A DNA stretch of 64,000 nt from Paludibacter sp. (lineage in GTDB: Bacteria > Bacteroidota > Bacteroidia > Bacteroidales > Paludibacteraceae): NCBI GenBank assembly GCA_028710895.1, contig JAQTTH010000002.1:186001-250000 (forward strand), given 5' to 3'. The notes under the pieces are model-generated. The model searched no databases. It saw only the letters and a list, made by a program, of their open reading frames with translations, and was not told the DNA's origin. Both the position numbers and the translations under genes were made by a program. Below, piece after piece: positions 1,332 through 48,721 of the stretch (position 1 is the stretch's first letter; each line of letters starts with the position of its first letter).

Positions 1332-1369
1332 CAGCCGGAATAAATTGATAATTTATTCCGGCTGTTTTT
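1332..1369 (+). terminator. Rho-independent terminator
   Basis: A perfect 15-base-pair stem (1332-1346 with 1350-1364), a three-base loop and a following T run close the TonB-domain gene. Confidence 0.9.
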
Positions 1370-1379
1370 GAATTTGTTC

Positions 1380-1672
1380 ATTTTTTACATTATATATAAT
1401 TAAAAGTGATTGTAATTAATGTAAATATATAATATTCTTATATATAATTGATTTTAATAAATGTATAATGAAATTTATTTGAGATATTAATTTATCTAAT
1501 TAGATTTATTATACTCTATATTGATATTAAAAATAGAATGATAAAATATATAATGAATTTATTAGATACATATTATGACATATAATAATATTTTATACAT
1601 TTGTATAAAATTATTTGTATTATACTGAATGTAAATAAGAATGTTGATAAACAGACTCAAACAGACTTAATC
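1380..1672 (+). promoter_or_regulatory. Very AT-rich leader with a -7 promoter box
   Basis: About 290 bases are almost free of G and C. A consensus Bacteroidota -7 element, TACATTTG, lies at 1596-1603; no clear -33 TTG is seen at the right distance. The box overlaps the TTG at 1601 that would give a longer reading frame, so that longer start is very unlikely. Confidence 0.5.
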
Positions 1673-2395
1673 ATGAAGATCACTTTATCCCGCCTGAGTG
1701 TTGCTAGCCTCGACTGGCTTGCCGGAATAACAATTGAAGAGTCGATGACTGAAAAGTATGGTGTGGCCAAGGACCATCCTTTGTTGGCAATGCTTCAGAC
1801 AGAGTACGACCGTTACGCCGAAGTATTTGATAAAAAAGCTTACAGCGGTATGGGTAAGCTGGTGGCAAAGGCCGATGTACGACGAAACGAAACATTTGTG
1901 GGACTGAAATTTTGTATTTACGGTCTCTCAAAAGTGGAGGGGAGCAATGCGCAACAAGATGCAGTGGATTTGTACAGTATAATTAAATGGCACGGACTGG
2001 ATTTGAATCGGAAAAATTATATGTCGAAGTCGGCTGTACTCTCCAAGCTGATTGAAGAGTTATCGCTACCCGAAAATAAGCTGAAAATAGAGCGGATTCA
2101 TTTGGCAGAAGTTCTCGGGTTGTTGAGTGCTGCGCAGGATGATTTTGAACGACTGGCGCTGGAACAAATTTCGGCTAATGCACAATTGCGGAAGATGGAG
2201 TCGTCGACTGCACTGCGTGGAAATCTCGAAAAAGCCCTTGGCAATTACTTCAGGATAGTGACAGCTATGAAGGACTTTGATGGGTGGAAAGAATTACACG
2301 GACTGCTGAATGAGTATGCAAAATCGGCGCGCCATTCGCATCGTACCAGGAAAGAACACGAAGAGGTACAGACTGAGGCGAAGAAGGAAGAATAA
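1673..2395 (+). CDS. DUF6261-like hypothetical protein
   Basis: A 240-residue soluble, mostly helical protein without signal peptide or membrane segments. The ATG at 1673 was chosen because the in-frame TTG at 1601 lies inside the promoter -7 box. The C-terminus is strongly charged (RTRKEHEEVQTEAKKEE). Overall make-up recalls the DUF6261 family of Bacteroidota, but this is recognition from memory and no catalytic motif is visible. It stands alone: an AT-rich leader upstream and short palindromic repeats downstream. No function is proposed. Confidence 0.6.
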   Translation: MKITLSRLSVASLDWLAGITIEESMTEKYGVAKDHPLLAMLQTEYDRYAEVFDKKAYSGMGKLVAKADVRRNETFVGLKFCIYGLSKVEGSNAQQDAVDLYSIIKWHGLDLNRKNYMSKSAVLSKLIEELSLPENKLKIERIHLAEVLGLLSAAQDDFERLALEQISANAQLRKMESSTALRGNLEKALGNYFRIVTAMKDFDGWKELHGLLNEYAKSARHSHRTRKEHEEVQTEAKKEE

Positions 2396-43817: not shown

Positions 43818-44084
43818 CTTATTTTTTCCTTAAAATTACTTGCTTTTGTTTCGCATTTTTAAGTCCGCAAAGTTCGGAAAAAAAACTGAATAACGAAAGT
43901 GCTTCTAACAAATTAATAAATTTATATAACTTGTTCCAAATGAGGAAGAAACTGAAATCAAAAATAATTGAAAGTTTTGACTGAATTAGTTGCTTTTTAG
44001 TTATCTAATTCAAAAAAATGATATTCTTCTTGCACAAATAAAATAAATTTATCATCTTTGCACCCGAAAATAAATCAAAAAGAA
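43818..44084 (+). promoter_or_regulatory. trp operon promoter region
   Basis: TTG at 44030-44032, a 20-base spacer and CATCTTTG at 44053-44060 give a near-consensus promoter, placing transcription start near 44067, just before the leader peptide. Upstream is an 8-base inverted repeat, TGAATTAG (43982-43989) and CTAATTCA (44005-44012), that could be an operator. No gene lies in this stretch. Confidence 0.65.
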
Positions 44085-44141
44085 ATGAACACGGTTTTGA
44101 CAGTAAATAAATTTTGGTGGTGGCACTTGCAGATTAGCTAA
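44085..44141 (+). CDS. trp leader peptide with three consecutive Trp codons
   Basis: An 18-codon frame, MNTVLTVNKFWWWHLQIS, with TGG-TGG-TGG at 44115-44123 and TAA at 44139-44141. Three adjacent Trp codons in an 18-residue peptide directly before a terminator and trpB are the hallmark of ribosome-mediated attenuation. The peptide itself needs no function; its translation speed senses charged tRNA-Trp. Confidence 0.93.
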   Translation: MNTVLTVNKFWWWHLQIS

Positions 44142-44228
44142 TCGTGAGATGTAACACCTGTGTATATTGTCAAATTAAAAAGATATTACAAAAAGGCTTG
44201 TCGGACTCACGATAAGCCTTTTTTATTT
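44137..44228 (+). promoter_or_regulatory. trp attenuator: antiterminator arm and terminator
   Basis: Terminator: 44190-44203 pairs with 44210-44223 (14 pairs, one wobble, loop of six), followed by T residues. Antiterminator: GCTAATCGTGAG (44137-44148), which overlaps the leader stop codon, is complementary at 11 of 12 positions to CTCACGATAAGC (44206-44217), the distal half of the terminator. A ribosome stalled on the Trp codons leaves 44137-44148 free to block the terminator; a ribosome reaching the stop codon covers it and lets the terminator form. Confidence 0.88.
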
Positions 44229-46865: not shown

Positions 46866-47432
46866 ATGAAAATATTAGTTTTTGATAATTACGACTCGTT
46901 TACCTACAACCTGGTACACGCAGTAAAAAAGTTGGGATATACCGACGTGGAAGTACATCGTAACGACCAGATAGCATTGGAAGACATTGCACGATTTGAC
47001 AAAATAATCCTTTCGCCGGGACCTGGTGTTCCGTCGGAGTCGGGTATTTTGCTCGATGTGATTCGTACTTATGCACCAACAAAGCCAATTTTGGGTGTTT
47101 GCCTTGGCGAACAAGCCATTGCAGAAGCATTTGGCGGAACATTGATTAACCTGACTGATGTTCATCACGGCGTAAGCTCTATGGTGAATGTATTAGAAGA
47201 GGATGTGCTTTTCAACGGATTAGCAAAACAACTGGAAGTGGGACGGTATCATTCGTGGGCAGCTGAAAAATCGACTTTGCCCGAGTGCCTGACCATTACG
47301 GCTGTGGACGAAGAAGGTATGATTATGGCATTGGCGCATAAAACATATGACGTGCGTGGTGTTCAGTTTCATCCGGAATCGGTTTTGACGCCCGACGGGG
47401 AGCAAATGTTGAAGAACTGGCTGGAAAGCTAA
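46866..47432 (+). CDS. trpG: Anthranilate synthase component II (glutamine amidotransferase)
   Basis: A 188-residue class I amidotransferase supplying ammonia to TrpE. The nucleophile is Cys79 in GVCLGEQAIAEAFGG and the His-Glu pair is in VQFHPESVLTP. DNYDSFTYNLVH at the N-terminus is typical. It could also serve folate synthesis, but its place eight bases after trpE makes tryptophan the main role. Confidence 0.97.
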   Translation: MKILVFDNYDSFTYNLVHAVKKLGYTDVEVHRNDQIALEDIARFDKIILSPGPGVPSESGILLDVIRTYAPTKPILGVCLGEQAIAEAFGGTLINLTDVHHGVSSMVNVLEEDVLFNGLAKQLEVGRYHSWAAEKSTLPECLTITAVDEEGMIMALAHKTYDVRGVQFHPESVLTPDGEQMLKNWLES

Positions 47433-47690
47433 CTTGACAGACGTCATTGTTTGATTGTCAGGCACTATTGTTTTCATGACAAATGCAATTGTTTTAACTT
47501 CTGATACAATTGTTTGGGTGACAGACATTATTGTTTCGGCGACAGGCGTTATTGTTTTAAGTTCTTTTACTATTGTTTGAGTGTTCGACGTTATTGCTTT
47601 AACTTCTACCACCATTGATTTAACTTCTGACACAATTGTTTAGACGACAGACGCTATTGTTTGGAAAACAGATGCGATTTCTATATATTC
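47432..47690. repeat. Degenerate 21-base tandem array between trpG and trpD
   Basis: The core ATTGTTT starts at 47446, 47467, 47488, 47509, 47530, 47551, 47572, 47593 (ATTGCTT), 47614 (ATTGATT), 47635, 47656 and, degraded, 47677. Every step is exactly 21 bases. The preceding 14 bases come in two flavours, one near GACAGACGNN and one near TAACTTCTGACACA. The minus strand reads as seven-residue repeats of the kind SEVKTIV for nine units; the plus strand has stops. It is neither CRISPR-like (no spacers) nor an obvious gene. Confidence 0.9.
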
Positions 47691-47725
47691 TTATAGTATA
47701 TTTCTTTTGAACACAATAATATTTT

Positions 47726-48721
47726 ATGAAACAAATACTTAATCAATTGTTCAATCACCAGTCCCTTACGAAGCAGGAGGCTGCAGAAGTAATGGCCAAT
47801 ATGGCCGGGGGCAAATACAACGAATCCCAGATTGCGGCGTTTATTTCGGTTTACCTGATGCGCAGCATTGAGCTGGACGAGGTAATCGGCTTTCGGGATG
47901 CACTGCTGAATACAGCTGTGCAGATCGATTTATCTGAGTTCGATCCATTGGATATTGTTGGAACTGGAGGTGACGGAAAAAATACATTCAACATTTCTAC
48001 TTGCAGCTGTTTTGCTGTAGCCGGTGCAGGTTACAAAGTGGCTAAACACGGTAACTATGGAGCAACTTCGGTAAGCGGCTCGTCGAACGTGCTGGAGTAT
48101 TTCGGAGCGAAATTTACTACCGATACCGACATTATCAAGCGTTCGTTGGACGAAGCGGGTTTTGCTTATTTGCATGCGCCTTTTTGCAACCCGGCTATGA
48201 AAAATGTGGCTCCGGTGCGTAAAAGTCTCGGGGTTCGTACATTCTTCAATGTGCTTGGACCACTAATCAGCCCTGCACGACCCAATTACCAATGTCTGGG
48301 TGTGTACGATTTGAAAATGATGCGACTTTACAATTATATCTACCAAAATTTAGGTTGCCAGTACTCGGTGGTTCACTCGCTGGATGGTTACGATGAAATT
48401 TCGTTGACTGATACCTGCAAAGTATCCAATAATCAGGGAGAATTTGTCTATACACCCGAGCAATTGGGCTTCAGAAGGCTCAAACAGGAAGAACTTTGGG
48501 GTGGAAATACGGTGGACGAAGCGGCTCAGATATTTATGAATGTATTGGATAATAAAGCAACAGAAGCTCAACGCAATGCTGTAATCATAAATACGGCCTT
48601 TGCTATTCAGACACGTAGTTCTTACAAACCATTGGAACAATGCAAAGCCGAAGCAGCCGAATCGCTCGAAAGCGGTCATGCCAAAAAGGCGTTTGAGAAG
48701 TTTGTGGAGATATATAAATAA
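47726..48721 (+). CDS. trpD: Anthranilate phosphoribosyltransferase
   Basis: A 331-residue enzyme transferring phosphoribose from PRPP to anthranilate. The PRPP-binding GTGGDGKNTFNIS motif, KHGNYGATSVSGSSNVLEYFG, the HAPFCNPAMKNVAPVRKSLGVRT segment and FNVLGPL are diagnostic. It is separated from trpG by 293 bases holding the 21-base array, unusually far for this operon. Confidence 0.97.
   Translation: MKQILNQLFNHQSLTKQEAAEVMANMAGGKYNESQIAAFISVYLMRSIELDEVIGFRDALLNTAVQIDLSEFDPLDIVGTGGDGKNTFNISTCSCFAVAGAGYKVAKHGNYGATSVSGSSNVLEYFGAKFTTDTDIIKRSLDEAGFAYLHAPFCNPAMKNVAPVRKSLGVRTFFNVLGPLISPARPNYQCLGVYDLKMMRLYNYIYQNLGCQYSVVHSLDGYDEISLTDTCKVSNNQGEFVYTPEQLGFRRLKQEELWGGNTVDEAAQIFMNVLDNKATEAQRNAVIINTAFAIQTRSSYKPLEQCKAEAAESLESGHAKKAFEKFVEIYK

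Follow-up and report, generated by a model that had tools for sequence, protein, structure and literature searches.

A 21-bp phase-locked repeat array between trpG- and trpD-like genes of Paludibacter sp., most likely a gene-less member of a class of arrays found upstream of small-protein families

The window analysed here, a 64-kb stretch of Paludibacter sp. DNA (64,000 nucleotides of contig JAQTTH010000002.1), carries a trp operon in which gaps of 6 and 8 bases separate the earlier genes, 293 bases separate the genes that we take to be trpG and trpD, and 72 bases follow before the next gene. These sizes agree with what an earlier reading of the sequence alone (hereafter the sequence-only reading) had reported, and it is also from that reading that we take the two gene names. 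The leader RNA upstream, which scores 54.6 bits against a cut-off of 49, agrees with the name of the first. The features at this locus are the following.

44065..44202, plus strand: Bacteroid-trp leader RNA (RF01692), leader of the operon that the array interrupts
46866..47432, plus strand: trpG-like gene, glutamine amidotransferase component
47220..47633, minus strand: antisense open frame of SEVKTIV-like heptads, judged not to be a gene because of a stop and because periods in the class are not always multiples of 3
47437..47445, plus strand: leftover of another unit left of the array, spacer only (GACAGACG-like), read from the sequence, the position of its core being taken by the end of the trpG-like gene
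47446..47697, plus strand: direct-repeat array of twelve 21-bp units, the last one decayed
47726..48721, plus strand: trpD-like gene, anthranilate phosphoribosyltransferase, which starts 28 bases past the array

Each unit of the array begins with a core, ATTGTTT, followed by 14 degenerate bases, and the core starts run from 47446 to 47677 in steps of exactly 21 bases, with no insertion or deletion. Nine of the twelve cores read ATTGTTT, two are single-base variants (ATTGCTT at 47593 and ATTGATT at 47614), and the twelfth, ATTTCTA at 47677, matches at four of seven positions, so we count eleven good cores and one decayed core. The phase is as given in the earlier description of twelve cores that are ATTGTTT or close to it, and the two spacer flavours that it distinguished within the 14 bases are both real. 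Over 47446-47697 the identity is 0.59 at lag 21, 0.55 at lag 42, and 0.63 at lag 63, and at most 0.36 at the remaining lags from 10 to 69. When the whole window was scanned for periods (252-bp windows, step 10 bp, lags 15-34), the top 25 values all fell on or beside the array, and the highest value outside 47000-48000 was 0.44. A pattern of three cores spaced 21 bp apart, allowing 3 mismatches at most, matched 11 times in the window, 10 of them in the array, as against a mean of 0.95 and a maximum of 4 in 100 shuffles. The array is real and lies far above chance.

We searched 60 relatives, a set that includes the genome of the window, for the trpG-like gene and found matches in 45 genomes, from which 30 loci were taken. 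One locus runs off its contig, leaving the gap to trpD readable in 29, the window's own included. None of the 28 readable gaps of relatives contains an array. These gaps (L029-L057) range from 3 to 1417 bases, and their content differs between species: some are short spacers, and others contain, as named by eye, small RelE/ParE-like genes, a methyltransferase-like gene, or an ATPase-like gene. We also scanned 58 segments flanking the trpG loci of 29 relatives for periods, gaps included, and obtained a single weak match, outside the gap. The gap is hypervariable and lacks the array in these relatives, which suggests that the array arose recently and locally at a site prone to insertions. In one relative (L049), the gap starts with 16 bases, TTGACAGACGTAATTG, which resemble the left end of the array, either by chance or as a trace of common origin.

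The sequence itself appears to be confined to this site in its genome: BLAST of the own genome with the array returned only the array, and a pair of exact cores with 21-bp spacing was found at one further position. Short BLAST matches to the unit, of 19-36 bp, were obtained in 17 other genomes of 300. No clear 21-bp array was seen at the 18 loci concerned, among which L010 has two cores 21 bp apart and L011 lies at a contig end where it cannot be judged. A common origin of this unit with arrays elsewhere in the family was therefore rejected, given the shortness of the matches and the lack of a clear 21-bp array around them. The sequence-only reading had stated that absence from every relative and from the rest of the genome would reduce the array to a chance or decaying minisatellite. 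Half of this is what we found, since the array is absent at the site in the readable relatives and has no second copy in sequence, yet the genome does contain other arrays of this kind.

We scanned one genome per species (84,980 species) for three cores at 21-bp spacing, which gave at least 118 stretches, many of them simple repeats. Several Bacteroidota contigs and a few others carry long arrays with conserved cores and divergent 14-base spacers (L150, L151, L101, L106, L126, L133, and L142, as well as L111 from a Limisphaerales bin), the core being common to these arrays by choice of the query. We set aside runs of a simple heptamer, repeats of the Nostoc type, and arrays within open frames. 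Among 109 listed arrays of at least four units, we chose by eye 17 degenerate loci, 7 of which lie beside a gene for a small protein of one of two families, or one resembling them. Family A (L133, L117, L150) comprises proteins of about 210-300 aa, the longest with a CarbopepD_reg_2 domain. Family B (L166, L112) comprises proteins of about 205-235 aa with a weakly FN3-like end, and more loosely includes L058 and L115, which phmmer does not find similar to B and which were grouped by layout and weak FN3 matches. ATTGTTT is antisense to the gene in L133, L166, L112, L058, and L115, and sense in L117; L150 is an exception, with the array downstream of the A gene.

Profiles of the two families matched 20 (A) and 13 (B) of the 60 relatives. 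The window's own genome has seven A and seven B genes, one of each broken, and 13 of these 14 loci carry an array (lags 20-23), all upstream and none downstream. Over relatives and own genome together (60 loci, 7 of them own), 45 of the 59 loci that extend 300 bases or more upstream have an array there, and 1 of 57 has one downstream; by family, the counts are 23/29 upstream and 0/28 downstream for A, and 22/30 and 1/29 for B. The flanks of trpG, used as a control, gave 1/58. When lags 42 and 43 were admitted as well, under a more relaxed rule, 62 of 67 A and B loci had an array, although in a few cases it is weak or distant from the gene. The periods are 21 (38 loci, to which the window array adds a 39th array), 42 (17), 22 (4), 43 (2), and 20 bp (1). 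Across the phylum (296 genomes, own included), 12 genomes match A and 10 match B, 4 of the latter through only a stretch of the FN3 end. Outside the genus, the array lies upstream in 27/30 loci and downstream in 3/29, a count that leaves out four weak partial B matches (L276-L279), the matches of the own genome, and three A matches without loci. The base rate can be taken from an 850-kb sample of the own genome (400 kb from contig C14 plus a 450-kb part of contig C22 that includes the window), where 55 of 542 open reading frames of at least 150 aa have an array.

A period scan of the same 850 kb revealed further arrays, several of which precede genes of the family DUF6261 (PF19775) and one of which precedes a gene of another family, D. 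DUF6261 occurs in 24 of the 60 relatives, with 12 matches in the own genome, and its loci (30, from 102 matches) have an array upstream in 26/28 and downstream in 5/30. In all 26 upstream arrays, the strongest lag is 41 or 42, and lag 21 is among the top three only once. Family D, from which two broken pieces were kept apart, has an array upstream at 6 of 8 loci and downstream at 1 of 8, mostly with a period of 21 bp, L388 having 14/28. The window contains one of the 12 own DUF6261 matches.

1673..2395, plus strand: DUF6261 (PF19775) gene
1353..1555, no strand assigned: AT-rich stretch upstream of the DUF6261 gene with a weak 42-bp lag identity of 0.54, doubtful as an array

Tandem Repeats Finder reports no such array at 1353..1555. 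The DNA of the gene next upstream of this DUF6261 locus was matched in just 3 of 39 other genomes.

Fourteen arrays of the 850 kb are strong under a stricter threshold, with strongest lags of 21 (3 arrays), 41 (3), 42 (4), 63 (2), 45 (1), and 13 (1), so that 21, 41, 42, or 63 is the strongest lag in 12 of 14. Median array lengths, with borders as set by the script, are 333 bp for A, 350 for B, 318 for DUF6261, and 298 for D. The period goes with the gene family. We thus observe a class of arrays in which the period is kept, at 21-22 or 41-42 bp, or two or four helical turns, as is a length of about 300-350 bp, the unit being mostly specific to its locus. Other properties are less uniform. A dyad test is significant (p≤0.05) for 13/26 DUF6261, 6/32 B, 1/28 A, and 2/7 D arrays, indicating palindromes in DUF6261 arrays and in fewer B arrays. 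Predicted curvature, computed with wedge parameters and compared with column-permuted arrays, is higher for A and not clearly higher for B, DUF6261, D, or the window array, which gives no support to selection on DNA curvature except in A. A family-wide unit motif is weak at best, with TCTGACA in 3/28 A arrays and TCATCCA in 5/26 DUF6261 arrays, where shuffled maxima are mostly 2. Conserved columns cluster into a core (p≤0.05) in 8 of 66 arrays, about 3 being expected; the window array is among the 8 and in this respect is an extreme and not the rule.

The units turn over in sequence between loci. Comparison of 61 unit consensuses gave one near-identical pair, L241/L267 (19/21, best in opposite orientations), whose unit is partly palindromic, and the consensuses of L199/L204 agree at 13 of 14 determined positions. 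DNA alignments run through the array for L246/L252, L203/L207, L199/L204, and weakly L256/L262, and through the gene only for most other homologous pairs in that listing. Two paralogous B loci of one genome (L251 and L255 in G301) encode proteins with 94.6% identity and have upstream flanks that are 94% identical, yet inspection by eye shows a concerted change in the central block of almost all units, whose outer portions the two loci have in common. Such similar proteins next to different array cores make it unlikely that the neighbouring protein reads the sequence of the array, an idea which this pair weakens. These comparisons bear out the earlier view that phase is kept while sequence diverges, and spacing, more than sequence, seems to be what is maintained. 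Averaged over 57 arrays, the identity of units to the array consensus from left end to right end is 0.36, 0.42, 0.61, 0.77, 0.68, 0.49, and 0.38. This decay toward the ends fits a likely, less firmly shown, renewal by exchange of whole units, as the sequence-only reading had proposed, but the borders were set generously and part of the fall in the outer units reflects flanking DNA.

Two features of the DNA beside arrays were recorded. Seven array loci (L223, L242, L256, L258, L265, L266, and L267) have in their vicinity a dispersed repeat of about 120-290 bp, whose position and strand vary. The arrays at C22:116459-116945, C14:31681-32097, and L258 end at much the same IS-like sequence, GGTCTRTTCAATAAACTGTGTCAGAAA.

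As members of the class, we took non-coding direct repeats with a period of 20-23 or 41-43 bp over at least about 150 bp. The trpG-trpD array has the period, the length, and the non-coding character, and its unit is unlike those of the other arrays of the genome. The gene directly downstream is trpD, after 28 bases, and no gene or remnant of A, B, D, or DUF6261 was found near the array, so that its class membership is read from period and structure. Other arrays also stand apart from these genes. At C14:209012-209416 (in L342), a 21-bp array splits a pair of metabolic genes on one strand, kbl- and tdh-like, and so is a second case of an operon with a gene-less array inside it. The gene-less array at C14:99577-100100 has, by eye, the same unit as C14:183676, an array linked to an A gene. 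In the own genome, asnB is followed by an array and an A gene; one relative (G182) has there a degenerate 21-bp array of other sequence with no A-D gene within 1.5 kb, and another (G001) has neither array nor A-D gene within 1.5 kb, an A gene standing 2.4 kb beyond that. The asnB loci examined in the remaining relatives yielded no A-D gene, in a comparison that leaves out three distant loci and in which three contigs end less than 500 bp from asnB. The window array is most likely a gene-less member of the class.

The main rival for this copy is an inert minisatellite, generated by slippage or unequal exchange in a tolerant gap and exact in phase only because exchange removes units with insertions or deletions. 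Much at the site agrees with it: the absence from all 28 readable gaps of relatives, the hypervariability of the gap with its different inserts, the decay of the last unit and of the left border, and the uniqueness of the sequence in the genome. The array likewise contains no terminator-like site, has 3 promoter-like sites against 1.3 in shuffles, and on the sense strand folds as RNA with a z-score of -0.75, which is not notable. A neutral process would nevertheless hardly yield two narrow period classes among 12 of 14 strong arrays, and would hardly place arrays upstream of these particular families with a family-specific period. Both points weigh for the class and much less for the gene-less copy between trpG and trpD, for which we regard a functionless minisatellite as a serious possibility, with a probability clearly below even.

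A miniature transposable element carrying a minisatellite is improbable by comparison with the family of elements it would have to resemble. In Porphyromonas gingivalis, also a member of the Bacteroidales, tandem arrays of 23 nt (BrickBuilt) and 41 nt (PgRS/MITE464) lie inside miniature transposons, and 22-nt repeats are mentioned as well (PMC4596501). BrickBuilt copies share one unit, a leader, a tail, and IS5-like terminal repeats, both repeats being intact in 4 of 19 copies (PMC4596501). The shared IS-like ends of three arrays (C22:116459, C14:31681, and L258) and the dispersed repeat near seven array loci might point in the same direction. Units, however, mostly differ between loci, and the dispersed repeat, whose place varies from array to array, is neither a leader nor a tail. 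A search for framing inverted repeats around the trpG-trpD array found six pairs, of 10-16 nt and 75-91% complementarity, and no pair has one arm at each end of the array. For the trpG-trpD copy, this reading is largely refuted.

Slightly less probable again is an RNA system like a type III toxin-antitoxin module, in which a transcribed repeat RNA would bind the protein encoded downstream. Its layout, with a tandem array upstream of a small gene and a period tied to the protein family, is what we observe for the class, and B and DUF6261 arrays fold better than column-permuted ones (mean z-scores of -1.5 to -2.4 over two strands), as does the antisense strand of the window array (z-score of -2.4). 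Folding is nevertheless alike on both strands of the B and DUF6261 arrays, which points to palindromes and not to one RNA, and A arrays, D arrays, and the sense strand of the window array fold no better than controls. At asnB, moreover, a promoter-like motif lies between array and gene, and the proteins of the class have no significant match to Pfam or PADLOC toxins. No such small gene is present at the trpG-trpD site, and no RNase gene of the ToxN/CptN/TenpN type stands downstream of the array, the position being occupied by the trpD-like gene.

The sequence-only reading had also proposed that the unit might be seven codons, and a minus-strand gene for a heptad-repeat coiled-coil protein, or the remains of one, is very hard to believe: the SEVKTIV-like frame is indeed open over nine units, with hydrophobic residues at coiled-coil spacing by eye, but the unit at 47635 contains a stop in this frame, chance alone often leaves a repeated 21-mer open in one frame or another, arrays of 22, 41, and 43 bp occur in the same gene context, and the ATTGTTT arrays L150, L058, and L101 have stops in all six frames. 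Coding on either strand of the array is excluded by these stops and by the 22-, 41-, and 43-bp periods.

The reading that we favour, at a confidence a little short of even, is that of a non-coding, phase-locked array acting in cis, which would serve as an upstream regulatory platform where it is linked to a gene, the trpG-trpD copy being gene-less and maybe inert. In the asnB case, a terminator-like hairpin of the upstream gene precedes the array and a TAnnTTTG motif of the A gene follows it, TAnnTTTG being the -7 motif of Bacteroidota. Of the 37 loci whose gap is 98 bases or longer, 20 have this motif after the array, and three control strings score 7, 4, and 14 of 37, which makes it modest evidence for a promoter. 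The position upstream of a promoter-like motif and the occurrence of ATTGTTT in both orientations to the gene favour a DNA element upstream of the promoter. The arrays would then act as DNA, offering a DNA-binding protein a series of contacts along one side of the helix, through which it might modulate the downstream gene, and they could be renewed by slippage or unequal exchange of whole units. The earlier remark that 21 bases equal two helical turns and place the cores on one face is supported as geometry only.

Possible regulators are encoded beside some arrays. A LuxR-like gene lies on the far side of the array at 8 B loci (L261, L267-L270, L229, L241, and L243), where these divergent LuxR/GerE-like regulators share about 21-34% identity, and a LytTR-like gene at 2 A loci, both by similarity. 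Pfam, run on the 76 nearest upstream open reading frames of 101 loci (76 of 78 listed, L257 and L267 being left out, and some being spurious frames inside arrays), found GerE in 6 and LytTR in 2. A regulator beside every array was accordingly discarded as an explanation, since regulator domains at so few loci indicate that a neighbouring regulator is not general. At trpG-trpD, no regulator gene was seen.

For the trpG-trpD copy, the cis-acting reading would mean that the array arose, or was left, in an insertion-prone gap of the operon and, if active, would act on the expression of trpD and of the genes that follow. The structural evidence supports class membership well, cis action is something we infer, and the copy at this site may well be inert. 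More speculatively, families A, B, D, and DUF6261 may form two-part systems with their arrays, in which the period of the DNA (two or four turns, over about 320 bp) would be read and the sequence not, the array being a hypervariable scaffold tuned to the protein family and the trpG-trpD copy a gene-less satellite before a metabolic gene; we consider this doubtful.

If the favoured reading is true, what appears to be a stray minisatellite belongs to a phylum-wide layout in which length is conserved and sequence mostly is not, and in which repeat length tracks the uncharacterised protein family involved. This would make DUF6261 and the unnamed families accessible to functional tests, and tandem arrays might be under selection for phase alone. 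No publication on the association of arrays with these genes, or on its parts, was found by title and opening of the abstract, in a search that most subscription journals lay outside.

Among known systems, origin iterons of plasmids and phages are direct repeats of about 19-22 bp on a common face of the helix, whereas the window array sits in a chromosomal trp operon, flanked by trp-like genes, and no gene for replication was noticed next to it. The earlier statement that no named element fits is nearly right, the closest being BrickBuilt and PgRS/MITE464 of P. gingivalis, whose defining features are lacking here. Like those elements, the arrays described here occur in Bacteroidales, are intergenic and tandem without spacers, and are present in several copies per genome, and the 22, 23, and 41 nt of P. 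gingivalis lie near our classes of 21-22 and 41-42 bp. Unlike them, the arrays of the class have units that mostly differ between loci, with no common unit, leader, or tail, the trpG-trpD array is not framed by terminal repeats, and the class goes with families A, B, D, and DUF6261.

Heptamer direct repeats, TAACTGA among others, are described from Beggiatoaceae, Cyanobacteria, and Bacteroidetes, including Paludibacter propionicigenes (PMC4679880). They resemble our arrays in being intergenic direct repeats upstream of genes; nevertheless, theirs is a fixed heptamer, and most arrays here have no strong lag 14, with exceptions such as L306, L378, and L388. The operators of LytTR regulators, such as CoxC and RcoM, consist of short direct repeats two helical turns apart (PMC11347149). 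The 7-bp cores of the window array, 21 bases or about two turns apart, are similar in arrangement, the core being of 7 and not 8-9 bp, and by eye ATTGTTT is unlike the RcoM1 motif TTCNNGCA. LytTR operators have two or three repeats with a known regulator and promoter, whereas the arrays described here have about 6 to 20 units.
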